A stretch of DNA of 42,786 bases, from positions 1 to 42,786 of IMG/VR virus record IMGVR_UViG_3300034104_001071. One strand, 5' to 3'. The stretch comes from a virus. Of the stretch, positions 14,213 through 40,306 are shown in pieces. The notes beneath the pieces were generated by a model. That model did no database searches. It was not told the origin of the DNA and saw nothing but the letters and a program-made list of their open reading frames with translations. Both the position numbers and the translations under genes were made by a program. Positions within the stretch are counted from its first letter, which is position 1; each line of letters starts with the position of its first letter.

Positions 14213-14754
14213 TAAACCTCCACCAGACTGATAGACACATCCCATAGATCATTGTGTTGTCCTCTTTTTACAATAGTAAAATCAAAATCATCAAAGAAAA
14301 CATTATACTTTTCAACATTTGTAATTGAATTTCCAGAAACAGAGGCATCATATACTAGTAGCATCCAAAAATCTGAAAAATTTGCATCATACCAAGCTTT
14401 AATGTCTTGTCCTGCACCAAATCCATCTGAGGTAATTTTATTTGAAAGACCATCTGGAGATGCAGGTGTTGGTCTAGTTTTTCTAGAAGGAATGGCTTCC
14501 CAAGAAGTAGAAAAAGACATTTTGTCTGCAACATGAACAGAACGCATTGTTCCATCAATCATTCTTCTTCTAGACTCAATTCTTTGTGGAACAATTGATA
14601 AAGATGATCTATTATCATCAGTTAGGTATAAGGGGGTTGATGGTGCAAAATCCCATTGTCCAGAGTTTTCTCCAGTTCCAGCAATTGGTTCTGTTAAAGA
14701 AAAAATAATTAAAGATGGTTTCCTATAAGTTTTTTGTAAGTCTGCTAGTGCCAT
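14212..14754 (-). CDS. distal-tail (Dit)-like protein
   Basis: 180 aa. Directly downstream of the tape measure and upstream of the Tal-like gene, the classic place of the distal tail protein. The sequence (SLTEPIAGTGENSGQWDFAP at the start, DFDFTIVKRGQHNDLWDVSI near the end) is beta-rich and compatible with a Dit or tail-completion fold, but family identity could not be confirmed by reading alone. GGAG lies 6 nt before the ATG, and both ends are TAATG overlaps with neighbours, so expression is tightly coupled to the tape measure and Tal-like genes. Confidence 0.6.
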   Translation of the reverse strand: MALADLQKTYRKPSLIIFSLTEPIAGTGENSGQWDFAPSTPLYLTDDNRSSLSIVPQRIESRRRMIDGTMRSVHVADKMSFSTSWEAIPSRKTRPTPASPDGLSNKITSDGFGAGQDIKAWYDANFSDFWMLLVYDASVSGNSITNVEKYNVFFDDFDFTIVKRGQHNDLWDVSISLVEV

Positions 14755-17700
14755 TAACTACTCCTTCCAAAAGCTCTTTTATTGTCTTCCTTACCAATAG
14801 CCGTAACAATTTTTTGTGCAATCCTATTTGGATCCATCGAAGGACCAGATGCATCAACCGTGATGTTATATACGTTACTGTTAGATACCATTGTACCACT
14901 ATCTACTGGAGAAATGCCAGACATTGATGGCATACCAAATTTTAATTCTGCAATTCCATCTTTTAAGGTTTGTGTTAGTGGCTTTGTTAAAACCATTTCT
15001 CCCTTATGAAGTTGGGCAAGACCATCAGACATTGTTTCTCCACCAATTCTCATTCCTGGGGGATTAGATCCATTTTTAAGTGCTGACCACTCAAAGTGTA
15101 GGTGAGGACCAGTAGAGTTTCCAGTATTTCCAGAATCACCAATAAAGTCTCCAGCACTAACGGACCCTCCCTTACCATGTGAATTTAAGTGGGCATACAA
15201 AGACTCTGTTCCGTCAGCATGTTTAATTGTTACATATTTTCCAAAGGAACTGTTGCCCTTGCTCAGATTAGATGCCTGTCCTCCAGCCATAGCATAAACT
15301 GGAGTTCCAGTTGGTGTTGCGTAGTCAATGGCTGCTCCATATCTTGAACTGTGCTTATTTCCACTTGGGTAAGTTCCTCTTGCAGTTATGCCATAGGATC
15401 CACGAAGTATTCTTGCCACCTTTCCAAGTTTTTCTGGAATAGATGTTGGACTTCCAGAGCCACCACCGTCTGAATTTTCTGGTTCTTCATTCATTGCACT
15501 TGCTGCTGCAGAAACTAAAGCGTTAGCTGAATTAATTGCTGCAACTGCTGTTTTAACTCCACCAGCAAATGCTGCTGCTGATGCTGGTGCTTCGGCACCA
15601 CCAACACGATATCCAATACCACCAGGAATACCCATTCCTCCTGTATTATTAATTTTATCTAATGTGTCTTTTCCAATTCTCTTAACTGAGTCTGCCTTTA
15701 CAACATATTCTCCATTTGACAATTGAGCTGGAATGGAGTCAGATGTTCCAGTTCCTGGACCAGTTACATATCCACCCTTTGCATATCCACCAGTTCCACT
15801 ATTCTCTGATCCAGCCCCACCCTTACTCTTAGGCAAAGCTTTTTTAATTAAAGTCTTTAGGTCTGTTGCATTTACTCCATATTCTTTTGCAGATTTTTGC
15901 AACTCTGCATCAAATACCGATTGGAAGTTATCTCCAAATGATGTTGCAAGTTTGCTCATTGTATCTTGTGCACTCTTTGGCATATTTGCAGCAACCGAAG
16001 ATATTGCATCTGCATATGCACCAAGATCTTTACCAAGTTTTTCTCCAACTGGCATATCCATAAGCTCTTGCAATTTACCCTTTGCATCATCAAATGCTCT
16101 AATTTCTGCAGACTTATTTGTTTGAATTTTTATAGCTTCTTTTTGAAGTGAAGCCATTCTCTTTTCATGGCGTTCTCCTTCTTTGTCCATAAGCTCTTGA
16201 TTTTTATCTAGTTGCTCTTGTAAGTTTCCAACCGCCAAATCTGCCTGTTCTTTAATCTTATCAATTGTTTTTTCAATCTCGTCAATTCTTGCCTGAGACA
16301 TTTCTTCAACTTTGCTAATTTCATTTTGTTGTGCATTTTCTTGAGCAGCAGCAGCCATTTCATTTTGTGCTTGTAGGAATCCAAATACGTCTCCACTTGC
16401 AAGTGCACCAAGACCACCAAGAGCAGTTTGTCTTTGATCGTTCTCAAAAGAGGACTGATCCTTTTGTGACTGAAGTGCATCTAGGTACTTATCAGAACTT
16501 TCTTCAATTGCATCAATTTCTTTTTCTTTTGCATTAATCTGTTCGTCTGCTGCTTTTTGAATTTGCTTAATTTCTTTTTGGATAGCCTTGTTTCGCTTTT
16601 CCATGTTCTTCTGAAAATTCTTTGTACGCTCATTTTCTGATTCTTGAGCGTTTTCATTGTTTGCAGCAAGTTGATCGTAGTATGCTGTTCTTACCTGAAT
16701 TTCTTTGTCAATTTCATCAATTGCATCTTGAATCTGAGTATTAACTGTAATGTTAATTTGTTTCTGAGTATCAATTGCAGCCATTTCAGTTCTTAGTCTT
16801 TGTGCTTCATCTGCTGCCAACTTTCCATCTGCAATAACTGTTGTTAAATCAATACCTGCAGCAGCAGCTTGTACTAGCAAGAACTGATCTTTGGTTCCTT
16901 GAACCTTATCAGTTGTATCGTCAAGTGCTGCATTCATTGTTTGAACGAACTTGCTATCCTCTTCAAATCCAAGATCCTTAGCCATTGCCTGTGCACTCTC
17001 ACCTAATGCTGATGCAATATCTGCTTGATTAGTTCCTGTTTCTGCACCCTTTTTAAATGTTGCTTCGATTGTCTTACTCATGGTTTCAAATCCTACGCCA
17101 AGATCTGGAGACATAAGAGCAGATTTAAATGCTTGTGTAATTTGACCTTCCAAGTTTGCAAAGTCTTGATTAGAGGTTAATTTGTTTGGACCCATTACTG
17201 GGGTTACTGCCCCTCCGCCTCTTGCTGGCATTGCAATATTTCTGGTAAACAAGGCATTAATATTTCCAACTGCTGCTTGACCAACAGCTTCGGTTGCCTT
17301 AATTGCAGTTGCTTGTGCATCTACTTCTCCGTTTGCACCAGTAACTACTGTTTGATTTAATGTTCCAGAAACACTTTGAAGTGCTCCCATTTTTCCACTT
17401 GCCTGGGCTAAAACAGATAAAACTTCTTTTGCTTGTTCAGGATTAAATCCTTGCTGCAACATCTTCCCATATTGACCAAGGAATATTGATGATGGGTCAT
17501 TAGACTTTCTAATTTCTTCTACAAGTTTTTTATTTTCTTCTTGTTCTAAGATTGATTGTTTTAGGGCTGGATCAACAGTTGCTGCAGTTGGTGCTGCTGC
17601 AAGACCCATCTCTTTTGCAATTTTAACATTTTCTGCCATTGCAGCATTAACGTTTAGTAATTCAATTCCATAATATTCTGCAGCCTTAGTTTGTTCTGCA

Positions 17701-20700
17701 TATAAAGATTCTCCAGCTTTTTTAGCATTATCAATTGATTTTTGATAAGCAACAAACGCTGCAGTGCCAAGGGCAATTGCTGCAAGAACTGCCATTCCAG
17801 CTGGTCCAGTTGCAATACCAATTGCGGAAAGAGTGCCTCTAGCAAGCATTCCACCTTTGCCAGCTTTTCCAGCCTTATCTGCTAAGCCTCCCATGACTCT
17901 TCCAGCACCGACTTTTTTCTTAGCATCTTCAAGGGCATTTGGGTTATTAATTGGGTACTGTCTTCCACCTCTAATAAAGTCCATGGTTGATGTTCCACTT
18001 CCAAATGCTCCAGACTTTATTCCTCTGGCTTTGGCACCAACACTCATTCCTGCTCCACCAATACCACGAACTTGGGCAATTGTAGTAATTGCTGATAAGG
18101 CAATCATTGCTGTGGTTAAAGAGTTTGTAAATCCAGAAAGAGCTTCATTTGTTCCAGTAAGAGCTGGGAGCATAAATGCTCCAGTCATTGCTAGACCGCC
18201 AACAGCACCTGCTTTTTGTCCTCTAAGTGCTTTCTTTTGAGCCTTAATATCTTGCCCATCTCTAATTCCATCTTCAGCCATCTTTGCATCTACCCAGGCT
18301 TCTTCTGCTACAACTTGACCACTAGCCATTTTAACTGGCTTGTTGTTTCTAGTTGTTACTACCTTTCCAGACTCTTCATGATCTTTTATTTGCTCTTTAG
18401 TTAAGGCTCCACCAGTTGCTCTTCTTGGGGTACTAGGAACTCGTCCTCTTCCACCAACTGGGACCGATCCAAGATATCTCTTCATTTCTGGAGAATCATC
18501 CTTGTCTGGGTATACAGTTCCTGCCTTGCCAATTCCTGCTGTTATTTTGTACGCTGGATCACCTGCGTTTAATGCATTTGTTGCTCTAATATATTCTAAA
18601 GTTTTTGGAGTTATTGATCCATTGGATTCTAAAATTGATAATGCTGATAAAAACTTTTTTCTTGCTTCTCCAGATACTGGGTGGTTTCCAGAAAGAATTG
18701 ATTTAATTTGAGCTGGTGTTGCTTTAGCTTGTTTCAGTGCATCTCTAAACGCTGCGGTGTTTCCTTTCTCTGCGTCTACACCACCTCTAGTAAGATATTC
18801 AAATGCTAGGTTTTCTACCTTTGGCATCCATGCAAGTTTTGGAGGAAGCCATCTCTTATATGTTTTACCATCAATTGTAACTAAGTCTTTTTGTAAGTGA
18901 CCAGCTTCAACCTTAGAAAATCTGTCAATATCAGAATCACTAAAGTAGCCTGATTCTTTTAACTTAGCTCTAATAGCTGCTTCCATTGGATTTATTATTG
19001 CAAGGCTATCTTCTTTATTTCTTATTTTTCCAATTACTGCAGGTCTTCCAGTTCCAGGGTTAGCTCTTCCTGGCTTGCTTGTAAGCCTTCCAAGATCATT
19101 TACCATGTTTCTTGAATTTTCAGATTTAGAAGACTTAAATTTTTCACCAATCTCTAGCAAGAAATCTTTAGTGATAAGACTAGTTTTAGTTTGTCCAGTT
19201 CCTGTATTTAATCTTTTAGTTAAAGAGTCTACAATAATTTTTGCATCTTTTTTATTGTCAACACGAGATAATGTTTTAGTTAGCCAGTCATCAAGTGGGA
19301 GCTGACTTCCTGTTTTTACATTTGTTTTTATAAGGTCTTCTAAAGCACTATATCCAGGAACTGATCCACCTTCAATAAGTTTTATAAAGCCACCATTTGC
19401 ATAAGCCCATGGCAAACCGCCAGTTCCTTGAGCATGACCTCTTTGTCTAGCTTTTTCTACAAGCTCTGCTTGTTTCTTTGCAAGTGCAGCAGCAGTTGGA
19501 GACTTAGCAGCAGTAAGACTTAATCCAGAATGATGTGCGTGTAATGCTCTCCAGTCAATGCCTCTTGCATCCTCTAAGTCAGTAACGATTCCCTGATACA
19601 TTTTCTTTTCAGCAGGTGTCATATTTGGAAGCTTGTTAATTGCACCCTTTGTTTTTCCAAGAGCATCATCAATTTTTGCCAAAAACATAGATTCATATTT
19701 TTCTGGTGTCATGCTTCTTGCAATATCACCAGTTGATTCTGCAAACCATTTTTTAGCCCCACCCTTTTGTGCTAAGAAATTAATTAGTGCTTGTTCTTCA
19801 ACTGGAGTTTTAGGTCCACCAACTGTTCTTGGCTGGGAAGCCCTATTTGCTACAAAACCTGATCCTACATCTGTTACTGTTCTTCCAAAAAGATTATCTG
19901 GCTGTAAGTCATTATCTCTTCTAATAATAGAAGCCAATGCCTGTGAAGCAAAATCTTCTGGGTCAATTTTTCCAGTTGATTTGGCAAATGCTTCATCGTA
20001 TGGAGATCTAACAGCAAACATTTGCTCGCCAGTTCTAGGATGTGCAATTTTAATCATTTCTTGATTTGGAGTGTTTAGTCCAAATATGTCTCTTGTTAAC
20101 TGTGTTCCTCTTGCCTCAACAAGTGCGGAGTCAGAATCTGTATGACCCTTAACAACATATTTTTTACCATTAATTTCATAGACACCATTTACTCCTGGAA
20201 TTGCAGAACTAAATCCGCCAATGCTAGATGATCTTGTTCCAAGTTCCGTTAATGGCATAGAAGCAAATCTTCCTGTTTTTGCTTCTTGATCTGCCTTTCT
20301 TAAAAGACCTCTAACATTTCCAATTCTTTCTGAAAACTTTTCTGGCATACCAAGGAATAAAGGCTTTCCTCCACCACGATTTAATCTAATTGGACCACCA
20401 TTTTGGAATCTTGGAGCCTGATTAAAATTAATTTCTTCTAGCATAGGACCAAACTTTTTAGCTGCTTTTTTATTTACTACAAATTCTCCAGGCTCAAGTA
20501 GTGCTGGAACCTTATCTCCGTCTCCATTTCCAGGAACGTAAGGTTGCCCTCCTTGCTGAAGTTTTGCTTTCTTTCCTCCACCTTTTGGAGATCTTCCTCC
20601 AGCAGTAGTACCAGGCATAAACAATCTATTGCTTAACCTAACTTCTTCTCTTAGGTTTGCAAGATATCCTTCCATAGTTAAATTTAACTTGTCAAGAGAT

Positions 20701-22553
20701 GCTTTTTGATTATTGTAAGCTCTTGCAAGAACATCTGATGCTTTAGATGCTGCAAGCTGAGTGTCATCTAGCATTTCAAATTTTTCTGTTCTTAAACCTG
20801 CAAGTGAGGCACCAAGCTTAGTAATAGACATTGCAGATTTAGTTATGTATCCTGCAAAGTTTGCAAATACACCAACAAGCATAATCAAAGGTCCTGCAAT
20901 TAAGGTAAATCCTGTTGCAACCTTTAAGAAGCTTTTAACTGGTCCTGGAAGACCACTTGCATATTCAACAAGCATACCAATAAGAGTAGCTGTTTTTTCA
21001 AGGAAAGGAATTACTGAATTTGTTAAAACTTCACCAACTGGAAGTAAAGATGCCTTAATTGCTTCCATAGATCTTTGAAAACGCATAGCTGATGATTCTG
21101 TAAGAGTTCTAATTTCAGAGTTTGCAATTTTTGCAAGGTCTTGAGAAGAAGCCCCCATAAGTTTTAAAACCTCTACTGTTTGTGATCCTGAAGCATTTAG
21201 GTTATCAAACAAGGCAGAAATTCTTGCAAACTGATATTTACCAAAAAGCTGTTCAATAAGTTGTGCTTTTGCAAACTGATCAAGACCTGCAAGTGCTTCC
21301 TGGAAAGCCATAATTGTTGGCATGAGCTTTCCCTTGTTTGCTTTTACAATTCCATCTAGATCAATTCCATATTGCTTTGCAGTAATTGATGCTTGTTTTG
21401 TTGGGTTGATAAGGGAGGCGAGACCAGACTTGATAGCATTTGCACCTTCGGCTGCATTCACGCCTCCCTCTTTCATTGCTACAAGTAAAACTGCTAAGTC
21501 TTTGACATCTCCGCCAAGAGAGTTAACAACTGGACCAACACGAGGGATTGCTTCAGTTAAATCTTGGAGTGATGCAGATGTCTGGTTTTCAACGGCGTTA
21601 AGGAAGTTAATTGACTCTGCCAATTCGTTTGTACTCATATTAAAAGCACCTTGAAGAGCGAGGGTTGCCTTCATTGCTTCTTGTCTATCAACCTCACCAA
21701 GTACGGCTAGGCGTGTTGTTTGTGCAACTGAGTCTAAAAGTTTTTGTCCTTCTAGTCCAGTTGCTGCCAAGTCTGCTGCCAGACCTGCTGTTTCTTTTGC
21801 TGCTATACCATATTTACCAGCAAAGTCTTTTGATAATTGCTCAACTTGAGACCTCATTGTATTTGTTGCTTGTTGATTTGCACCAACAAGATCTGAACCA
21901 TAAACTTTGGCAAATCTTGTAAGTTCTTTATCTACTTCTCTAAACGTTTTAGATACTGTTGCACCAAAAATTGTCAATGGTACAGTAAGACCAACAGTAA
22001 GCTGACGACCTGCCCACTGTGTATTTTTACCCCAGTTAATAAGCTGAGTTGCACCATCATTTACAAGTTTATTAAAGATAGAAAATTGTTTTTGGCTAAT
22101 AGCCATTTTTGTATTAATGTCAGATGTGTCAATTGTAAGGGGGGTGATAAGCATTCCTTGCTGACGACCCTTTTGGTTTTGCCCCATACCAACAAGTTGA
22201 GACTGTGCTCTTCTTACTTCATCTTCAGCAAGCCTTCTAGCCATGCTATTTTTTTTGTAAGCCTGTGCTGCCTCTTTGTAGTATTGACGAAGAGTTAATT
22301 GATTTTTTTGAAGGGCTTTTCCAAATCTTTCTACGTCACTGGTAAGGTCTACAATTTGAGCATTAAACCCTCCAACGTTTCCAAGACTGGACATGAAAGA
22401 ACCTGCACGAGCATTTCTTACCTTATTGGCTTCACTGTCAAGAGACTTAAACGCAGCATTAAGTACAGTAATGTCTTTTACAAGTGATCGAATTTGAGTT
22501 TGGAGAGGACCAAAATTTGCATCAAAACCAAACGTAGACCTAACATCAGTCAT
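14754..22553 (-). CDS. tape-measure protein with embedded kinase-like and C-terminal M23 domains
   Basis: 2599 aa, very long. The N-terminal ~600 residues are the TP901-type tape-measure core: coiled coils, LSKDFAGKYGIAAKETAGLA, then a hydrophobic segment near 550 (VATGFTLIAGPLIMLVGVF). Two VPALLEPGEFVV / IPAQLSNGEYVV motifs, typical of actinophage tape measures, flank the middle. Residues about 775-1000 hold a kinase-like signature (K802, D882-x4-N887, D895-V-G897). Around 1430-1560 there are hydrophobic segments. Near 1930-2100 there is a long Glu/Lys-rich coiled coil. Residues ~2380-2490 are an M23/LytM peptidase fold (D2410, H2455, H2484-L-H2486), but the usual first zinc-ligand His is Gly2406. 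Role: sets tail length and probably enters the envelope during DNA injection. Confidence 0.93.
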   Translation of the reverse strand: MTDVRSTFGFDANFGPLQTQIRSLVKDITVLNAAFKSLDSEANKVRNARAGSFMSSLGNVGGFNAQIVDLTSDVERFGKALQKNQLTLRQYYKEAAQAYKKNSMARRLAEDEVRRAQSQLVGMGQNQKGRQQGMLITPLTIDTSDINTKMAISQKQFSIFNKLVNDGATQLINWGKNTQWAGRQLTVGLTVPLTIFGATVSKTFREVDKELTRFAKVYGSDLVGANQQATNTMRSQVEQLSKDFAGKYGIAAKETAGLAADLAATGLEGQKLLDSVAQTTRLAVLGEVDRQEAMKATLALQGAFNMSTNELAESINFLNAVENQTSASLQDLTEAIPRVGPVVNSLGGDVKDLAVLLVAMKEGGVNAAEGANAIKSGLASLINPTKQASITAKQYGIDLDGIVKANKGKLMPTIMAFQEALAGLDQFAKAQLIEQLFGKYQFARISALFDNLNASGSQTVEVLKLMGASSQDLAKIANSEIRTLTESSAMRFQRSMEAIKASLLPVGEVLTNSVIPFLEKTATLIGMLVEYASGLPGPVKSFLKVATGFTLIAGPLIMLVGVFANFAGYITKSAMSITKLGASLAGLRTEKFEMLDDTQLAASKASDVLARAYNNQKASLDKLNLTMEGYLANLREEVRLSNRLFMPGTTAGGRSPKGGGKKAKLQQGGQPYVPGNGDGDKVPALLEPGEFVVNKKAAKKFGPMLEEINFNQAPRFQNGGPIRLNRGGGKPLFLGMPEKFSERIGNVRGLLRKADQEAKTGRFASMPLTELGTRSSSIGGFSSAIPGVNGVYEINGKKYVVKGHTDSDSALVEARGTQLTRDIFGLNTPNQEMIKIAHPRTGEQMFAVRSPYDEAFAKSTGKIDPEDFASQALASIIRRDNDLQPDNLFGRTVTDVGSGFVANRASQPRTVGGPKTPVEEQALINFLAQKGGAKKWFAESTGDIARSMTPEKYESMFLAKIDDALGKTKGAINKLPNMTPAEKKMYQGIVTDLEDARGIDWRALHAHHSGLSLTAAKSPTAAALAKKQAELVEKARQRGHAQGTGGLPWAYANGGFIKLIEGGSVPGYSALEDLIKTNVKTGSQLPLDDWLTKTLSRVDNKKDAKIIVDSLTKRLNTGTGQTKTSLITKDFLLEIGEKFKSSKSENSRNMVNDLGRLTSKPGRANPGTGRPAVIGKIRNKEDSLAIINPMEAAIRAKLKESGYFSDSDIDRFSKVEAGHLQKDLVTIDGKTYKRWLPPKLAWMPKVENLAFEYLTRGGVDAEKGNTAAFRDALKQAKATPAQIKSILSGNHPVSGEARKKFLSALSILESNGSITPKTLEYIRATNALNAGDPAYKITAGIGKAGTVYPDKDDSPEMKRYLGSVPVGGRGRVPSTPRRATGGALTKEQIKDHEESGKVVTTRNNKPVKMASGQVVAEEAWVDAKMAEDGIRDGQDIKAQKKALRGQKAGAVGGLAMTGAFMLPALTGTNEALSGFTNSLTTAMIALSAITTIAQVRGIGGAGMSVGAKARGIKSGAFGSGTSTMDFIRGGRQYPINNPNALEDAKKKVGAGRVMGGLADKAGKAGKGGMLARGTLSAIGIATGPAGMAVLAAIALGTAAFVAYQKSIDNAKKAGESLYAEQTKAAEYYGIELLNVNAAMAENVKIAKEMGLAAAPTAATVDPALKQSILEQEENKKLVEEIRKSNDPSSIFLGQYGKMLQQGFNPEQAKEVLSVLAQASGKMGALQSVSGTLNQTVVTGANGEVDAQATAIKATEAVGQAAVGNINALFTRNIAMPARGGGAVTPVMGPNKLTSNQDFANLEGQITQAFKSALMSPDLGVGFETMSKTIEATFKKGAETGTNQADIASALGESAQAMAKDLGFEEDSKFVQTMNAALDDTTDKVQGTKDQFLLVQAAAAGIDLTTVIADGKLAADEAQRLRTEMAAIDTQKQINITVNTQIQDAIDEIDKEIQVRTAYYDQLAANNENAQESENERTKNFQKNMEKRNKAIQKEIKQIQKAADEQINAKEKEIDAIEESSDKYLDALQSQKDQSSFENDQRQTALGGLGALASGDVFGFLQAQNEMAAAAQENAQQNEISKVEEMSQARIDEIEKTIDKIKEQADLAVGNLQEQLDKNQELMDKEGERHEKRMASLQKEAIKIQTNKSAEIRAFDDAKGKLQELMDMPVGEKLGKDLGAYADAISSVAANMPKSAQDTMSKLATSFGDNFQSVFDAELQKSAKEYGVNATDLKTLIKKALPKSKGGAGSENSGTGGYAKGGYVTGPGTGTSDSIPAQLSNGEYVVKADSVKRIGKDTLDKINNTGGMGIPGGIGYRVGGAEAPASAAAFAGGVKTAVAAINSANALVSAAASAMNEEPENSDGGGSGSPTSIPEKLGKVARILRGSYGITARGTYPSGNKHSSRYGAAIDYATPTGTPVYAMAGGQASNLSKGNSSFGKYVTIKHADGTESLYAHLNSHGKGGSVSAGDFIGDSGNTGNSTGPHLHFEWSALKNGSNPPGMRIGGETMSDGLAQLHKGEMVLTKPLTQTLKDGIAELKFGMPSMSGISPVDSGTMVSNSNVYNITVDASGPSMDPNRIAQKIVTAIGKEDNKRAFGRSS

Positions 22554-30106: not shown

Positions 30107-30133
30107 TAACACTTTTGTTATTATAAGTGTTAT
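30106..30133. repeat. 9-bp inverted repeat over the portal stop codon
   Basis: ATAACACTT at 30106-30114 and AAGTGTTAT at 30125-30133 form a perfect stem with a 10-nt loop. It covers the portal stop codon (30132-30130). It lacks a long U-tract, so it may be an mRNA-processing or translation-insulating structure. Confidence 0.5.
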
Positions 30134-31728
30134 TGTTGTTGTCTACCTTCGCCTTGAGTTGCTCTTGTTCCAGTTCCAGAGTCTGCAGCATTACCAGTTC
30201 TTTCTTGGTCTCTTCTTCTATTAGAAGTTGCTCTTGCTGTTTGGTCTGCTGCCTGTTGACCTGTTAATTGAACTGGTTCATCCCCACCTGAAATTGGAGA
30301 TAGTCCAAGTCTTGGTCTAATTTCATTTGGCATAACAACCTGCATACGAAGATATCTTTCGTCAATCTTTGACTGAGTGTCTTCATCTGTAAGGGTAAGT
30401 TCTTTAAAGTGAAGCTTAAACATGTCTGTTTTTTCAGCAATAATTCTATTAATTTTCTTTTCTAGAATGTCCTGTTGTGGTCTACATACCTGTTCTTTAA
30501 ATGTTCTGTCTGATTCACGAGCATTTGCAAGAGAAATATTCTCTGCTGATCCAATTTTAGAAATTGGGGTACGATGAGCCATAAGAATTTCTTCACGATT
30601 TGCTTTTCTGTAATTGTTAAATGAAGAGTCCTGAATGCCGTTTTCAATTGCTTCCATCTTCATTTCTACCTTGTTTACACCGTCATCAGGAGGTAGTGGG
30701 ACTACTACTGTTCTATGATTTTGACCACGCATGTTATTTTGCATAAATTCAAATAGTTTTTGTTCTGCTTCTGGAGTAAACTTTGCACCCTTTAGCCAAA
30801 AAATATAACGAGGAACTGCTTTATTCTCAAAGTATTCCAAATTGTACTTTGATGCAAATTCGTTTCCAGCCATTGCATTTTTAGCAGTTACAATTGGTGG
30901 AATTCCATAATAAGTATTTGTTGGGGTATATTCTTTTAAGTGAATAATTTCATTTGGACGAGCATCTGATCCAACTGGATTTGGCTGGCTTACATCCTGG
31001 AAGTTTCTAAAAAATACTGCCTTACCATTTACGATTTGAACAAATCCATCACGAAGTCTGCGGATACGCATTGTTGCTGCTGGGATGTGACCAATATATC
31101 CAATTTCTCCAGCAGAGGTTCTGCCAATTTCTAGGTATCCATTTCCAGTGGCTTCTTTATCAATATAAGCTTTCATTAAAGTTGCAGTAAATGTGTCATC
31201 ATCATTACGAGACTCTATCCATTCTGTTACTTCTAGCTTTACTCTTTCCATTTTTCTTCTTGCACGAGCAAGCTGATCCATGTCAGTCATTTCTTCAAAT
31301 CTTTGCTGAACCTGCAATGTTTCTTGTAGTTCATACCCAAGACCAACAATATTAGCAACCTTTGCTTGAATAGCTGCGTAGTTTGCTGATGAAACTTCAA
31401 ATATTTTTGCCAACGAAGATAAATTATATGGGGGCTCAATTACATCAAATAGACCATATCCATACTTGTCTGGAATCATTTGCTTAGATGAAGCACCTTG
31501 ACCACTTAGTTCATTATTGTCTGCTTTTTCTAGTTTACGCTTTGCAGCTCTGCGAAAATTGTGACTAAGACCAGAAAGAGAAAGAATATCGTCTCCAGAC
31601 TTTTTAAATTCGTCTGATCCAGTCCAAGGAGATTCAGCTTTAGGTGTTGAAAAAAGCTTTACTCCACTTACTTCTCTGTTAGTTTCTTCCATTGTTAAAC
31701 AACTCTTTCCAGTTTTCTGAATCGCCAT
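30130..31728 (-). CDS. portal protein
   Basis: 532 aa. Portal-type pattern: YGLFDVIEPPYNLSSLAKIF, then YLEIGRTSAGEIGYIGHIPA, IIHLKEYTPTNTYYGIPPIV and a helical segment after it (ANREEILMAHRTPISKIGSA), followed by a Gln/Arg/Thr-rich C-terminal tail. This matches SPP1/HK97-type portals (phage_portal family), including the 'ptsy yGipp' signature. The gene lies just upstream of the protease and capsid genes. The start at 31728 overlaps the previous gene by 50 nt; an ATG at 31692 overlaps by 14 nt and is equally possible, since neither has a good Shine-Dalgarno sequence. Confidence 0.88.
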   Translation of the reverse strand: MAIQKTGKSCLTMEETNREVSGVKLFSTPKAESPWTGSDEFKKSGDDILSLSGLSHNFRRAAKRKLEKADNNELSGQGASSKQMIPDKYGYGLFDVIEPPYNLSSLAKIFEVSSANYAAIQAKVANIVGLGYELQETLQVQQRFEEMTDMDQLARARRKMERVKLEVTEWIESRNDDDTFTATLMKAYIDKEATGNGYLEIGRTSAGEIGYIGHIPAATMRIRRLRDGFVQIVNGKAVFFRNFQDVSQPNPVGSDARPNEIIHLKEYTPTNTYYGIPPIVTAKNAMAGNEFASKYNLEYFENKAVPRYIFWLKGAKFTPEAEQKLFEFMQNNMRGQNHRTVVVPLPPDDGVNKVEMKMEAIENGIQDSSFNNYRKANREEILMAHRTPISKIGSAENISLANARESDRTFKEQVCRPQQDILEKKINRIIAEKTDMFKLHFKELTLTDEDTQSKIDERYLRMQVVMPNEIRPRLGLSPISGGDEPVQLTGQQAADQTARATSNRRRDQERTGNAADSGTGTRATQGEGRQQQ

Positions 31729-32046: not shown

Positions 32047-35000
32047 TTAAGCAGACGAAAGTACAGATGTTGTTAGTGAAGGTGCACTCTTATTAAAACC
32101 TAAAACTTTTTTCTGGGTTTGTGTTTGAGTAAAAACTGGACTTGAGCTAACGGTAGTCTTTAAATAATAATAACTTCTATTTTCTTTTCCACCCTTAACA
32201 AATACAACAGATCCATCTGCTGGCAAGGTAGTTTTTGTTAATATAGCTTTTGCTGTGTCAATGCTGTCTACAGTGTAGATGCCATTTTGAGAAGCTGTTG
32301 CTTGATTTTTAAGCAAAATTATATCTCCTGGAACAATTTCTGAGTTATCCACCATTAATAAGTCTCTGTTTGAATTATAAATAAGATGCCACTTTGTACT
32401 AACACTTGTAATTGGAATGTTTACAGTAGATGCCAGTCTTGGGCAGCTAGAAAAACTTAAGAAGGACTTTTGATTAGCTAATGGCTGATATGTGTTTCTT
32501 CCATCAGATGCCTCGCTATCTGATATTAAAATATTTCTAAATGATCCTGCTGATCCATCTGGAACTCTAATTGAGCTTGTAGAAAATAAAATATTATAAA
32601 AGTATTCTTGATCTGAAGGAATAGATGTCAAAACTGCAATGTTATCTACCATCCAGCCAGATCCAGCAAATCCAAAAAATAGATTAGAGTTGTATGGAAT
32701 TCCATTTGTAAATACTATTGAGTAATAGTTCCATGCAGAAAAATCATAAGTGGCTGATTCGCTAAACCTTTCTCCGTTAATATAAACCTGGACTCCTGTA
32801 TCTTCTGGATCTGCAGATGTTACCTGGATTCCAGTTGTTCTAAAAAATTCTATTAGTGCTGGATCCCCAATGCCTTTTCCACTAAACATAACGCTATAAA
32901 TTTCTGTTGTTGCATCTGATGTAATTCCTTTAACATCAAATGGTATCTTAATATAAGGATTTTTAGAGTTATGTGATCCAACTCTAACTCCAGTATAAAA
33001 CGCTCTGTGTAAGTCTGTGGTTTTTTCAAGTTCTGGTAAGAATTGAAATGCCTGATTTGTTGATGAACTGTATCCAGAAAAATACATAGGGTTTTTTCCA
33101 GGATTTGTGTCATTAATCTCTATGTAGTTTCTTGAATCTTCTTGAAGTACCTCATAGGTATAAATTCTAAAATAATCTAATATTCCAGGTGTTTGATAAA
33201 TGTCTGATGATCTTAAAGTTCCAGATATTTGATATTGAACTTCTTGTGCTTTTACTGTAGAAGGAATGTTGGTTGGAATATTTATTAATCTAATGTTGGT
33301 TCCAGATTCAATAGTAGATGTAGTTGATCCAACAATTGTTTTCAAATCATAAGATATTTCTGCTGAATTAGAACCAATTTCACATTTTGGAGCTAGAAAA
33401 ATTCCAGAAGCAAAAGTAGCATCATGTTTGTCAAGTCCAATTAAATCTGTTAAAGATAGTGTCATAGTAAAAGACCCACTAGTTGCAACTGCAATTGACC
33501 TATTGTAATATTTTGAATATAGTTGATATAGGCTTGAAATTCCTTTTGTTTGTCTGGCACTCCAATTAGCCGTAACGCTTGAAGAATCAATAATATCTAC
33601 ATGAGATAGATATCCATCAAATCTTTTTATTTCTGAAGTTTCTATTCCTTTTGGAACTATTGATCCTTGGAAAACTGGGCTACTTCCAAATCTGATAAAA
33701 GAATCTTGTATGGGGAAAATATTGGAAGATGTTATTGTTCCAGTAGTTTTATCGTTGTTATCATCTATAACTCTAATTACAATATCGGGTCCGTTTTTTG
33801 CTACTGATATTAAAAATGATGTTGATGTTGTATAAATAGCGTGTGTAAAAAGTGTTGTTTCAGTGCCACTTTGGGTTTTATATTTAACAATTACATTTTT
33901 GTTATTTATTAAACAGCTAATATATTTATCCGATACAGACTTTGAACCAATATACATAAGCTGTTGGTCTCCTGTTGTAGCGTGGCTAGAATCTATCTTA
34001 AAAACAGCTTCTATTTTTTTTGTATTTCCGTCTGTAATAGATTCGTGATTATTTACTTCAACATAGCTATAGCAGTCGCTTGGGAATTTAATAAAAGACT
34101 CTCCACTTAAAATTGCAAACATATCTTCTTGAGAAAAAGAAACATTGTCAGAAGATAGATTCAGGGAATGGTTATTGTAATTTACGGTTGATAGGTTATT
34201 ATTATTTGCTAAAAGATTTTTTAATACTGCTCTATTTGACCAAGTATTGTTATCTACATAATTTATTTGTTTTAATGGCTGAGTTTGTTGCATATTTGTT
34301 TCATAGCTAACGCCACCAAGAGATTTATAAATATACTTTGGAACATTGTATCCAAGACCATAAACGTAATGTCTTTTTGCTACAGAAGAATCTAAGGCAT
34401 TTGGATAAATTGCTATAGTGTCATAAGTAACTCCATCAAAATATTGTGAACTGCTATTAATTCTATTTGGAAACAAAAAATCTATTGTCCTGGTTTCTTC
34501 TGCTCCAAAAACTTCATCCTCAATAATTGGAATGTTTCCAGAAACACCGTTTACAATAAGTTGTATTGAATATGTTGTATAAACAACCATAATATGTAAT
34601 GGTGTATTAAAGTTTGGCACATGTACGGAAGACTCATAAATTCTATTACTTGAGGTATCTCCAATTTTAAAAACTAAATAGTCCAAATCTCTAATGTATA
34701 GTCCAGTATTGGTTGCCCCTGAAAATGCAACAATTTTTGACTCTCCAGTTCTAGAAGCAGCACCTGAAGATAATTGTTCTGGACTTATAGACAAATTCAT
34801 CCAAAACTCTAATGTATGGGCTGACCCTCTTGTTTGTGATGAAAATTTTCCAAGTGAAGGAACGGAAAAAATTTTATTATTGGTTGAATAATTACTTGTA
34901 TAGCTTCCTTTATTTGACAAACAGGTTTTTCCACCATATGTCATTGGAATAAAATTTCTAGAGTATTTATTGAAAGCAGCTAGCCCATTGTAGGTTTCGC

Positions 35001-35100
35001 TATTTATAAAAGCATCAGCATATATGATTGCTCCACTAACCTCGTCCATTGACCATATGGCTTCTGGGGAATCTTTTAATATAAGAGCTGAATAAGACAT
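32047..35100 (-). CDS. LamG-like adhesin / virion fibre protein (1017 aa)
   Basis: The N-terminus (ALILKDSPEAIWSMDEVSGA followed by strand-rich segments with HTLEFWMNLSI and HIMVVYTTYSIQLIVNG) is a concanavalin/LamG jelly roll. A second similar module lies around residues 370-500 (KKIEAVFKIDSS..., PDIVIRVIDDNND). A third is likely near 790-880 (ISVMFSGKGIG..., WNYYSIVFTNGIP, FFGFAGSGWMVDN). GAGG precedes the ATG by 5 nt. It sits between the RNR and the portal operon rather than with the tail genes. Probable surface protein of the virion (fibre or decoration) binding glycans; the attachment site is unknown. Confidence 0.75.
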   Translation of the reverse strand: MSYSALILKDSPEAIWSMDEVSGAIIYADAFINSETYNGLAAFNKYSRNFIPMTYGGKTCLSNKGSYTSNYSTNNKIFSVPSLGKFSSQTRGSAHTLEFWMNLSISPEQLSSGAASRTGESKIVAFSGATNTGLYIRDLDYLVFKIGDTSSNRIYESSVHVPNFNTPLHIMVVYTTYSIQLIVNGVSGNIPIIEDEVFGAEETRTIDFLFPNRINSSSQYFDGVTYDTIAIYPNALDSSVAKRHYVYGLGYNVPKYIYKSLGGVSYETNMQQTQPLKQINYVDNNTWSNRAVLKNLLANNNNLSTVNYNNHSLNLSSDNVSFSQEDMFAILSGESFIKFPSDCYSYVEVNNHESITDGNTKKIEAVFKIDSSHATTGDQQLMYIGSKSVSDKYISCLINNKNVIVKYKTQSGTETTLFTHAIYTTSTSFLISVAKNGPDIVIRVIDDNNDKTTGTITSSNIFPIQDSFIRFGSSPVFQGSIVPKGIETSEIKRFDGYLSHVDIIDSSSVTANWSARQTKGISSLYQLYSKYYNRSIAVATSGSFTMTLSLTDLIGLDKHDATFASGIFLAPKCEIGSNSAEISYDLKTIVGSTTSTIESGTNIRLINIPTNIPSTVKAQEVQYQISGTLRSSDIYQTPGILDYFRIYTYEVLQEDSRNYIEINDTNPGKNPMYFSGYSSSTNQAFQFLPELEKTTDLHRAFYTGVRVGSHNSKNPYIKIPFDVKGITSDATTEIYSVMFSGKGIGDPALIEFFRTTGIQVTSADPEDTGVQVYINGERFSESATYDFSAWNYYSIVFTNGIPYNSNLFFGFAGSGWMVDNIAVLTSIPSDQEYFYNILFSTSSIRVPDGSAGSFRNILISDSEASDGRNTYQPLANQKSFLSFSSCPRLASTVNIPITSVSTKWHLIYNSNRDLLMVDNSEIVPGDIILLKNQATASQNGIYTVDSIDTAKAILTKTTLPADGSVVFVKGGKENRSYYYLKTTVSSSPVFTQTQTQKKVLGFNKSAPSLTTSVLSSA

Positions 35101-35116
35101 AATTTCCTCTTATACA

Positions 35117-37060
35117 TTATACAGTTTTAGCGGTACCAAAATCGCTTATATCACAAGCACCTGCAACACATGCAAGATCTTGAACACTTGTAGTTCCGTC
35201 AAATGTTTCGTAAATCTCTAACCACTTCCAGTCAAGGTCTGCAGGAGTTTCAGAAACTAGTGCTTCATACTCTTCCTTTGTGCATTCTTGGTATGGAGCC
35301 TGTTGGTATGTATGCTCTGAATAAGGCAAAAAGGATACTCCAGACATTTCATCAATGTGTTCGTATACCCAAGCACCTACTGCCATCCATTCATTTTCTT
35401 TAACAGAAACAGTAATAGAAGGCTTGTGTTCTGCCCAATGTCTTTGGTAAGTAAGCCAAATATCTAAGTGCTGCACAGCAGTTAGATCTTGTCTTAGTGT
35501 TGCACCTTCTGGTGCAGCAATAGGAAATGAAAACACCATAGTGTCATTTGGTTTCATTACATCTGGCTCATGCTTAATTCCCATATCTACCAAGAATGAT
35601 GTAATTGGGTCTTTCATATCTCCACGAATTGTGCGTGTGTAATACTGTGAGTGCCATGGGTGCATTCCTGAAGATGCATTTACTAATTGAGAAACTGTAC
35701 CAGATGGCTTAACACATGTAATTGCTGCTGCCTGGTTTACTCCAATTTCTTTAGCCCATTTTGCATTAATTTTAACTGCATGCTCACGCATTTCATCAAG
35801 CCACTTGGAAAGCTCTTCTACGCCTCTAGAACCATTCAAGACAGGATGTGATAGCTGACCTGTTAGTGAGACACCAAGTAAACTTTCTTCCTCTGAGTTC
35901 TTCTGCCAAATTTTTCTTAGGTACTTAAATCTAGTAAATGAAGACTGAACGGTTCCAAGAATAGTTGCCAATTCAACCTTGTCTTTTAGTTCCTCAAGAG
36001 TGTCTGTGTCACGAACAATAACTTCTGTAAGGTTGCAAAACTGGTAAGGACGTAAAATAATTTCAGAACATGGGTTAGTTCCAAAATCTACAGTGTGGTC
36101 TCTACGACCATTCTTTTCTGCAACATTTTGTGCTGCTGCACGACTAAAAATTCCACGCTCTCCTGACTTTGAGTCATAAAGTGCTTTCCATTCATCCATA
36201 AATACTTCCATGGTTGGACGAGTTCCATAAACTGCAGAATTATTTGCAAGAGCTCTTTGACCTGAATATTCCCACCATGATCCAGATTTTGCTGCTGCCA
36301 TATTTCTATCTTCTAGGTCTGAAAGAGAAATCATTGCTGATCTACGAACCCCACCTACTACTACAACTTCTGCAATTTTACACATTAAGTCATGTGCTTC
36401 TAGCGGTGTTAATTTTCTACCTGCTGCATTTTTTACAACTGCAACAGAAAACTTAAATAGACGATCTAGTGGATCTGGACCAGATGCACGACCACCAAAT
36501 GTTTTAAGGCGAGCACCTGCAGGACGTACCTGAGACATATCCCAAGATGGAATCTGACCTTGCCATAAAAGTGCAAGAAGTTCTTTTAATGATCTAGCCC
36601 AACCTGCTTTAGAATCTTCTACAACAATGGTAGTATCTGTTTTTTCAAAATGTTCGGAGATTTCTGGTAACTGATTTACATAACGTGACTCTACGGAGTA
36701 TCCAACACCAGTTCCACACATAAGAATATACATGCCTTCGTCAAAAGAGCGAAGAGAGTCTACTGGAAGGTAAGAGCAATTGTAGAGACAGGTGCTATCA
36801 CGATCTAAGGCAGGTCCTGCGGTCATTAAACCTCTCATGGACGGCATTACCCTAGTTTTTAAAATAGCCTCTGAAATTTGTTTCTTAATCTTGTCAGACA
36901 TAACATATCCATTATGCTTTTCAAGTGCTTCAAACATGTATGAGGTATAGCGACCTACGGTTTCATCCCAATTTTCTCTGCGGTTTTCCGATTCCATCCA
37001 TCTCGCATAGCGTGTCTTGTGGATTACCTGCTGGTATGCAGTGGGTAGAACATAGGTCAT
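35117..37060 (-). CDS. nrdJ: adenosylcobalamin-dependent ribonucleoside-triphosphate reductase (class II, monomeric)
   Basis: 647 aa from the ATG at 37060, chosen because GGAG is 9 nt upstream; another ATG 9 nt earlier abuts that GGAG. It reduces NTPs to dNTPs using B12 for radical formation. Key residues of the Lactobacillus leichmannii-type enzyme are present: NPCSEI with the thiyl-radical Cys331 and Glu333, the partner Cys342 (same 11-residue spacing as C408/C419) and a likely Cys95 partner. The C-terminal redox pair Cys631/Cys636 in ACVAGACD has the same spacing as C731/C736. It is about 90 residues shorter than the 739-aa model enzyme. It would supply dNTPs for phage replication without needing NrdAB or oxygen. 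It sits inside the structural region. Confidence 0.93.
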   Translation of the reverse strand: MTYVLPTAYQQVIHKTRYARWMESENRRENWDETVGRYTSYMFEALEKHNGYVMSDKIKKQISEAILKTRVMPSMRGLMTAGPALDRDSTCLYNCSYLPVDSLRSFDEGMYILMCGTGVGYSVESRYVNQLPEISEHFEKTDTTIVVEDSKAGWARSLKELLALLWQGQIPSWDMSQVRPAGARLKTFGGRASGPDPLDRLFKFSVAVVKNAAGRKLTPLEAHDLMCKIAEVVVVGGVRRSAMISLSDLEDRNMAAAKSGSWWEYSGQRALANNSAVYGTRPTMEVFMDEWKALYDSKSGERGIFSRAAAQNVAEKNGRRDHTVDFGTNPCSEIILRPYQFCNLTEVIVRDTDTLEELKDKVELATILGTVQSSFTRFKYLRKIWQKNSEEESLLGVSLTGQLSHPVLNGSRGVEELSKWLDEMREHAVKINAKWAKEIGVNQAAAITCVKPSGTVSQLVNASSGMHPWHSQYYTRTIRGDMKDPITSFLVDMGIKHEPDVMKPNDTMVFSFPIAAPEGATLRQDLTAVQHLDIWLTYQRHWAEHKPSITVSVKENEWMAVGAWVYEHIDEMSGVSFLPYSEHTYQQAPYQECTKEEYEALVSETPADLDWKWLEIYETFDGTTSVQDLACVAGACDISDFGTAKTV

Positions 37061-37114
37061 TAAAATCATCTCCGAAGTATTTAAAATTTAGTTTCGCTGA
37101 TTGCGAGTAACTCT

Positions 37115-39363: not shown

Positions 39364-39372
39364 ATTATATCA
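39364..39372 (-). promoter_or_regulatory. extended -10 TGA-TATAAT for a leaderless mRNA
   Basis: TGA at 39372-39370 and TATAAT at 39369-39364, six nt (TTTGTT) before the ATG at 39357. It overlaps the last codons and stop of the glycosyltransferase gene. No Shine-Dalgarno sequence. Confidence 0.6.
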
Positions 39373-40306
39373 TTAAACGGGCTTCAACAGAATCAAGGTG
39401 ATCTCTTACAACCTTTTCCCATTTCCATTTTTTATGAACATCCAAAGCCCTCTTAGCCTGAACTTCAAGTATGGACTCTATATTTTTTTCTGTATGTTGC
39501 ACAAGAGCAGCAAAATGATTTAGGTCAGGTCTAAACATTTTTCCAGGATGAATTAATTGCCAGGGGTTGTACACTAGTTCAGAATTAATAACTAGCTCTG
39601 GACAATGCTCTTTGTAGTCACACCAACCATCTGTCATAACAACTGGCATACCTGTGGCTAATGCTTGTAGTGGCATGAGACCAAACCCTTCTCCCCAAGA
39701 AGGATAAAGCAAAGCGTGGTGCTGACCAACAAAGCTAGCAAGCTCTGAATAAGTAACGGTTTCCACAACCACGTTAATGTTTGGCTCATTAATTTCAAAC
39801 TCTGCTGCTGAATATGCTTTTACTGTTAACTCTACATCTTTTCTTCCAGCATATAATTCAAGAAAAGTATTAATAACTTCTGGTAAGTTTTTACGGTAAG
39901 CAGGATGCCCCAAATGCAGGAACTTTATCTTATCTTCTACTTTTCTTTCAATAGGAGCCCAAGTATCGTCTACTCCATGTGGAAACACATATATTTCTTT
40001 GTCTGTAAATTTACTAAATACATCTTTACAGAATTGATTAGGCACCCACATTTCATCAAGGTGGGAAATATACTCTTGCCACATAGGTTGAAGCTCAGTT
40101 GACTCCCAAGCGGTATATCCAATCTTGTGGGAATTTTTTCCATGAAATTTATAGAATTGGGGATGGCTAAAAGTTATTTCAACTGGGTTTTCTCGCTCAA
40201 TTAAAAGACTATGATTTGTCTTACCAATATTGGTAATTATTTTATGTGTTGCGTATCCGTAGCCAGTTTTAATACTGCCATCGCAATTATTGAAACCAAA
40301 TTTCAA
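39365..40306 (-). CDS. GT-B fold glycosyltransferase (family 4-like)
   Basis: 313 aa. It transfers a sugar from a nucleotide donor to an unknown acceptor (phage protein, DNA or host surface glycan). Visible signatures: IGYTAWESTELQPMW in the N-domain, GHPAYRKNLPEVINTFLEL at the start of the C-domain, and WGEGFGLMPLQALATGMPVV in the donor-binding region. The usual E-x7-E pair is E206-x7-Q214, so the second Glu is Gln. The start codon is TTG at 40306; upstream is only a weak GAAAG. It lies 14 nt after the stop of the membrane/coiled-coil gene. Confidence 0.85.
   Translation of the reverse strand: MKFGFNNCDGSIKTGYGYATHKIITNIGKTNHSLLIERENPVEITFSHPQFYKFHGKNSHKIGYTAWESTELQPMWQEYISHLDEMWVPNQFCKDVFSKFTDKEIYVFPHGVDDTWAPIERKVEDKIKFLHLGHPAYRKNLPEVINTFLELYAGRKDVELTVKAYSAAEFEINEPNINVVVETVTYSELASFVGQHHALLYPSWGEGFGLMPLQALATGMPVVMTDGWCDYKEHCPELVINSELVYNPWQLIHPGKMFRPDLNHFAALVQHTEKNIESILEVQAKRALDVHKKWKWEKVVRDHLDSVEARLMI

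Follow-up and report, generated by a model that had tools for sequence, protein, structure and literature searches.

A predicted kinase-like cassette in the tape-measure proteins of environmental phages

Siphophage tape measures have so far been seen as rulers, wall-degrading entry tools and proposed membrane pores. Does one of them also carry a kinase that could act in the host? The question arises from the window analysed here, a virus record of 42,786 bases (G+C 36.7%) taken as one whole stretch, in which a preliminary description had read a PI3K/HipA-like kinase signature inside the tape-measure protein (TMP). We propose, with a probability of roughly 0.55, that this region is a HipA/PI3K-like kinase with enzymatic activity, which the TMP carries as cargo and which is freed at the host envelope as the DNA enters. 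The fold and the modularity are computational results; we infer activity, delivery and target.

The carrier and the predicted fold

The domain lies within one long reading frame, identified as a TMP by a PhageMin_Tail core (Pfam) and by its match to a tape-measure PHROG. The gene and its parts are as follows.

14754..22553, minus strand: TMP gene, 2599 aa (ORF; PF10145, E 1.3e-27; phrog_10030 tape measure, E 3e-140)
21240..21839, minus strand: core domain PhageMin_Tail, residues 239-438 (Pfam)
20844..20933, minus strand: hydrophobic segment 1, residues 541-570 (hydropathy scan)
20475..20510, minus strand: VPALLEPGEFVV motif upstream of the cassette, residues 682-693 (sequence; kept in the kinase-less TMP of locus L085)
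19524..20333, minus strand: kinase-like domain, residues about 741-1010 (AlphaFold; Foldseek against PDB and BFVD; about 195 loci)
18339..19373, minus strand: variable region after the kinase, residues 1061-1405 (profile search)
17742..17831, minus strand: hydrophobic segment 2, residues 1575-1604 (hydropathy scan)
15072..15332, minus strand: C-terminal M23 peptidase domain (cell-wall entry), residues 2408-2494 (PF01551, E 5.1e-23)

Along the chain, the core with its hydrophobic stretch (541-570) is followed by the kinase, the variable region, the second hydrophobic stretch (1575-1604), a coiled coil and the M23 peptidase. Of the other kinase-bearing TMPs that we checked, 10 have a second hydrophobic segment, and in these at least one such segment is C-terminal to the kinase. 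Residues 1061-1405 are partly common to kinase-less TMPs in the profile search, which sampled this region sparsely. A Pfam scan of the whole TMP, which found PhageMin_Tail and M23, returned no MuF domain. By its TMP core the virus is closest, among named phages, to those of Streptomyces and Gordonia (32-35%), which makes actinobacteria plausible hosts.

Elsewhere in the window, a 1017-aa ORF (32047-35100, minus strand) has the portal gene (30130-31728) on one side and a gene for ribonucleotide reductase (35117-37069) on the other. It has no Pfam, PHROG or cultured-phage match; judged by eye, its sequence is reminiscent of LamG-like beta-sandwich repeats, and it is possibly an attachment protein. 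A glycosyltransferase gene (phrog_2170; 39365-40306, minus strand) may encode a host-surface modifier.

The two-lobed kinase fold proposed for the domain was supported by AlphaFold, which modelled an N-lobe that is rich in beta strands and includes a C-helix, together with a helical C-lobe. The window domain was modelled with a pLDDT of 90.9 and a pTM of 0.88 (18 sequences), and a distant member, L065 (36% identical), with a pLDDT of 95.7 and a pTM of 0.91 (54 sequences). Active-site residues were placed by their secondary-structure position in the model. The elements follow one another as in a kinase. The N-lobe runs from strands with a Gly-rich turn through the K802 strand and the C-helix with E813 to two further strands; in the C-lobe, well over 100 residues in the model, a helix leads to the loop with D882 and N887, which is followed by a short hairpin, D895 and then helices.

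When the window model was searched against the PDB with Foldseek, the top match was CtkA of H. pylori (E 1.7e-4, probability 1.00), followed by HipA, PI4KII-alpha, HipT and eukaryotic protein kinases, in keeping with the kinase-like matches that the proposal predicted. The L065 model agreed, matching HipA, YabT, CtkA, RioK1, other kinases and LepB, which likewise has a lipid-kinase region; the best E for the L065 model (2.4e-3) was weaker than that for the window model. Kinases are abundant in the PDB, and matches to them might arise by chance. We rejected this explanation because the best matches of the window model are of rare types (CtkA, HipA, PI4KII-alpha and HipT). It is also countered by an independent library, BFVD, in which Foldseek matched phage proteins, including one named PI3/4-kinase and one HK97-type portal. 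The modelled domain thus very probably has a kinase fold.

At the level of sequence profiles, no HipA-family match rose above the cut-off, and only HipA_2 appeared, in two members out of 54 with an E of about 0.02. None of the 54 matched PF00454 (PI3K/PI4K; Pfam, E 0.1), and a HipA_2 search of five related virus records found none. An hhalign comparison with a profile of 11 HipA proteins, for which plasmid HipA homologues were used, was weak (probability 2%, P 0.022) and placed K802 on HipA K181 and E813 on the helix glutamate. TM-scores against the PDB were all below 0.4; because of these scores and the missing Pfam matches, we place the modelled domain within the protein-kinase-like superfamily and outside its named families, as a distant HipA/PI3K-like member.

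Several other search results were set aside. A Pfam match to Acyl-CoA_dh_M (residues 766-819, E 0.0008) is below that family's own cut-off, is shared by few members and is contradicted by the model. Sequence searches of the PDB gave no kinases; what they matched, for the most part within the helical tail, was apparently due to chance. NCBIfam and PADLOC scans gave nothing useful.

Candidate active-site motifs

The motifs named in the preliminary description, K802, E813, D882-x4-N887 and D895-x-G897, are at the residues it assigned to them (window 19857-20228).

20193..20228, minus strand: Gly-rich loop candidate SSIGGFSSAIPG, residues 776-787 (G780 and S782 invariant)
20148..20150, minus strand: K802, candidate ATP-binding lysine on the strand before the C-helix (invariant, 54/54; strand in the model)
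20115..20117, minus strand: E813, candidate C-helix glutamate (46/47 representatives; helix in the model)
19893..19910, minus strand: catalytic-loop candidate D882-LQPD-N887, a D-x4-N motif (D882, L883 and N887 invariant)
19863..19871, minus strand: D895-V-G897, candidate metal-binding DxG (D895 and G897 invariant)

K802 is the last residue of the VVK strand, and VEARGTQ begins at residue 812. By itself, this motif set is weak evidence, near chance: 0.6 occurrences of D-x4-N...D-x-G are expected per shuffled TMP, and a fuller motif pattern, written post hoc, is present in 1% of shuffles. The motifs are raised above chance by their conservation across representatives. K802, D880, D882, L883, N887, D895 and G897 were unchanged in 47 representatives (<90% identity) and in 54 (<85%), and members sharing as little as 33-40% identity keep every catalytic position. 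The median dN/dS was 0.16 over 538 pairs, and about 0.19 for the window against L007, which indicates purifying selection. Residue invariance combined with low dN/dS is, as far as sequence can tell, the pattern of a working active site, and we consider it quite likely that the domain is catalytically competent. The ATP lysine, helix glutamate, catalytic Asp, metal Asn and metal Asp are all conserved, as in the protein-kinase-like superfamily.

We rejected a pseudokinase because the catalytic residues are invariant. The domain might also be an inactive kinase-like scaffold, serving tail structure or acting as a tape-measure spacer, and it is indeed located in a structural protein whose length it alters. 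Against this stand the invariance of all catalytic positions among even the most distant members and the finding that TMPs with and without the kinase are both common, so that we regard a scaffold as very improbable.

An exchangeable cassette

Relatives of the kinase domain are encoded at about 195 IMG/VR viral loci. They were gathered stepwise: one protein query led to 5 viral loci, their alignment to 20, and a wider alignment to 195, of which 80 were kept. No relatives were found in INPHARED cultured phages or GTDB genomes. Among the 118 kinase ORFs examined, 112 have the TMP N-terminal core and the other 6 are truncated or split TMPs; the domain was TMP-internal in all of these ORFs or fragments, and none was a free-standing toxin gene with a HipB-type antitoxin gene as its partner. 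At three loci (L146, L051 and L055), apparent frameshifts split the TMP frame around or after the kinase, reflecting either sequencing error or real split genes.

The claim that the domain is inserted was supported by L085, whose TMP has a core 93% identical to that of the window and lacks the kinase; the gap corresponds to about residues 721 to 1060, and an identical VPALLEPGEFVV is kept directly before it. The motifs said to flank the domain held on one side: VPALLEPGEFVV occurs once upstream (682-693), and its later relatives in the window TMP are only distant and degenerate (2276, 2512). A VPALLEPGEFVV-type motif is present on both sides of the domain in some relatives (e.g. L033, L059 and L086).

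When complete TMPs with distinct N-termini were gathered by the core alone (best 80 core matches), 18 of 39 contained the kinase. Core and kinase identities are discordant, and the discordance runs both ways. The core is the more similar part in L026/L046 (98% against 72% for the kinase) and L142/L135 (94% against 61%), and the kinase in L005/L009 (82% against 49% for the core) and L026/L033 (62% against 36%). The position of the kinase also varies between TMPs, and other TMPs of the group have HAD phosphatase, cytidylyltransferase-like, SLT or NlpC/P60 domains downstream of the core (Pfam). From these comparisons, the kinase domain is almost certainly an optional, exchangeable cassette.

Two further arrangements were seen. 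In the L004 TMP, residues about 755-880 contain a HAD-type MLMVDLDDTLWD... directly N-terminal to the kinase; the HAD phosphatase domains that Pfam detects in other TMPs of the group are in their variable regions. In L003:30-902, the first ~36 residues of the domain are L007-type and the remainder matches the window exactly. L003 thus seems to have arisen by recombination, the breakpoint falling within the kinase close to the Gly-rich loop.

The accompanying cassettes also bear on the chemistry of the domain. A kinase fold could serve AMPylation or the phosphorylation of phosphoinositides or nucleotides, for example of membrane lipids at the entry pore. PI4KII-alpha is among the Foldseek matches, and the HAD phosphatase and cytidylyltransferase-like cassettes of related TMPs suggest small-molecule chemistries; the best matches, however, are protein kinases (CtkA, HipA and HipT), and a specific lipid-binding feature was not found. 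We consider such a role improbable.

Proposed delivery and known systems

TMPs are late proteins, so the kinase would be present in the producing cell too. The main rival to delivery is therefore a kinase that is active late in that cell, on tail proteins, the TMP itself or host proteins, and is a passenger in the virion, with assembly regulation or exclusion of superinfecting phages as the outcome. There is a parallel in the HipA-family kinases that Gratiaviridae encode between portal and capsid genes, for which late immunity to other phages has been proposed (PMC8008677). However, assembly does not need the kinase, since about half of the related TMPs are without it (18/39 with), and a free gene would serve late action equally; all the cases found are fused to a TMP, which hints that delivery is important. 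We think late action rather unlikely, and that the kinase acts after injection somewhat probable.

Published work on related systems is consistent with delivery. On ejection, siphophage TMPs insert into the envelope, and they often bear muralytic domains (PMC6116005); they have been proposed to form pores (PMC6116005, PMC8718954). In contractile injection systems, TMP-related effectors bear enzyme domains, e.g. a nuclease (PMC11126660; PMC13277306), and protein kinases occur among the polyvalent proteins that phages inject (PMC5512222). In the delivery that we propose, the TMP would lie inside the tail tube and be expelled on reaching the host envelope, where the M23 domain would open the cell wall and the hydrophobic segments would enter the membrane. 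The kinase, which lies between two such segments in the chain, would be released at or across the membrane and refold. When folded, a domain of ~270 residues might exceed the width of the tail tube, and would then need to travel unfolded or be specially placed. With host ATP, the kinase would then phosphorylate a host protein or, less likely, a lipid, which could favour genome entry or early takeover. Injected polyvalent proteins and the T7 kinase are thought to favour these same outcomes.

In the literature covered, which excludes most subscription journals and preprints, we found no earlier description of a tape measure with a kinase fold, and a prior account may exist. A broader idea, which we offer tentatively, is that the TMPs of this large environmental phage group might be polymorphic effector carriers, with a fixed entry backbone and swappable enzyme cassettes. 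A common cassette would be a new kinase family, delivered with the DNA and phosphorylating host targets before phage gene expression. If so, tape measures would be delivery vehicles for signalling enzymes, with a conserved, active-looking cassette in nearly half of the TMP group, and would provide a direct route to probing events in the host during the earliest minutes of entry. Such probing is made feasible by a natural pair of TMPs, one that has the cassette and one that lacks it.

Among known systems, the best structural matches are the HipA and HipT toxin kinases and CtkA, HipA-like Ser/Thr kinases that have the Lys, the D-x4-N and the following Asp in the same order. In HipA, however, the metal Asp is 18 residues past the Asn (N314-D332), whereas here it is 8 (N887-D895), and the present domain is TMP-embedded, with no antitoxin pairing and no HipA-family Pfam match above cut-off. 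PI3K/PI4K proteins share the D-x4-N loop, and PI4KII-alpha is among the Foldseek matches, but a PF00454 match is absent here. The MuF polymorphic toxins of temperate phages (PMC5576092) are similar in that exchangeable effector domains are borne by the virion; unlike them, the present system has no MuF domain and no immunity gene identified, and its carrier is a tape measure. The kinases of phage polyvalent proteins (Iyer 2017, PMC5512222) are likewise found in large multidomain proteins thought to be injected with DNA, but have lost the C-terminal subdomain, whereas the domain described here has a large helical C-lobe and is carried by a tape measure. In the contractile injection systems of actinobacteria, the TMP-related effectors Tme and Sle1 (PMC11126660, PMC13277306) are also tape-measure relatives with effector domains and membrane segments; those systems are non-viral, and their effectors have C-terminal nuclease or other domains, whereas here the predicted kinase is internal to a phage TMP.
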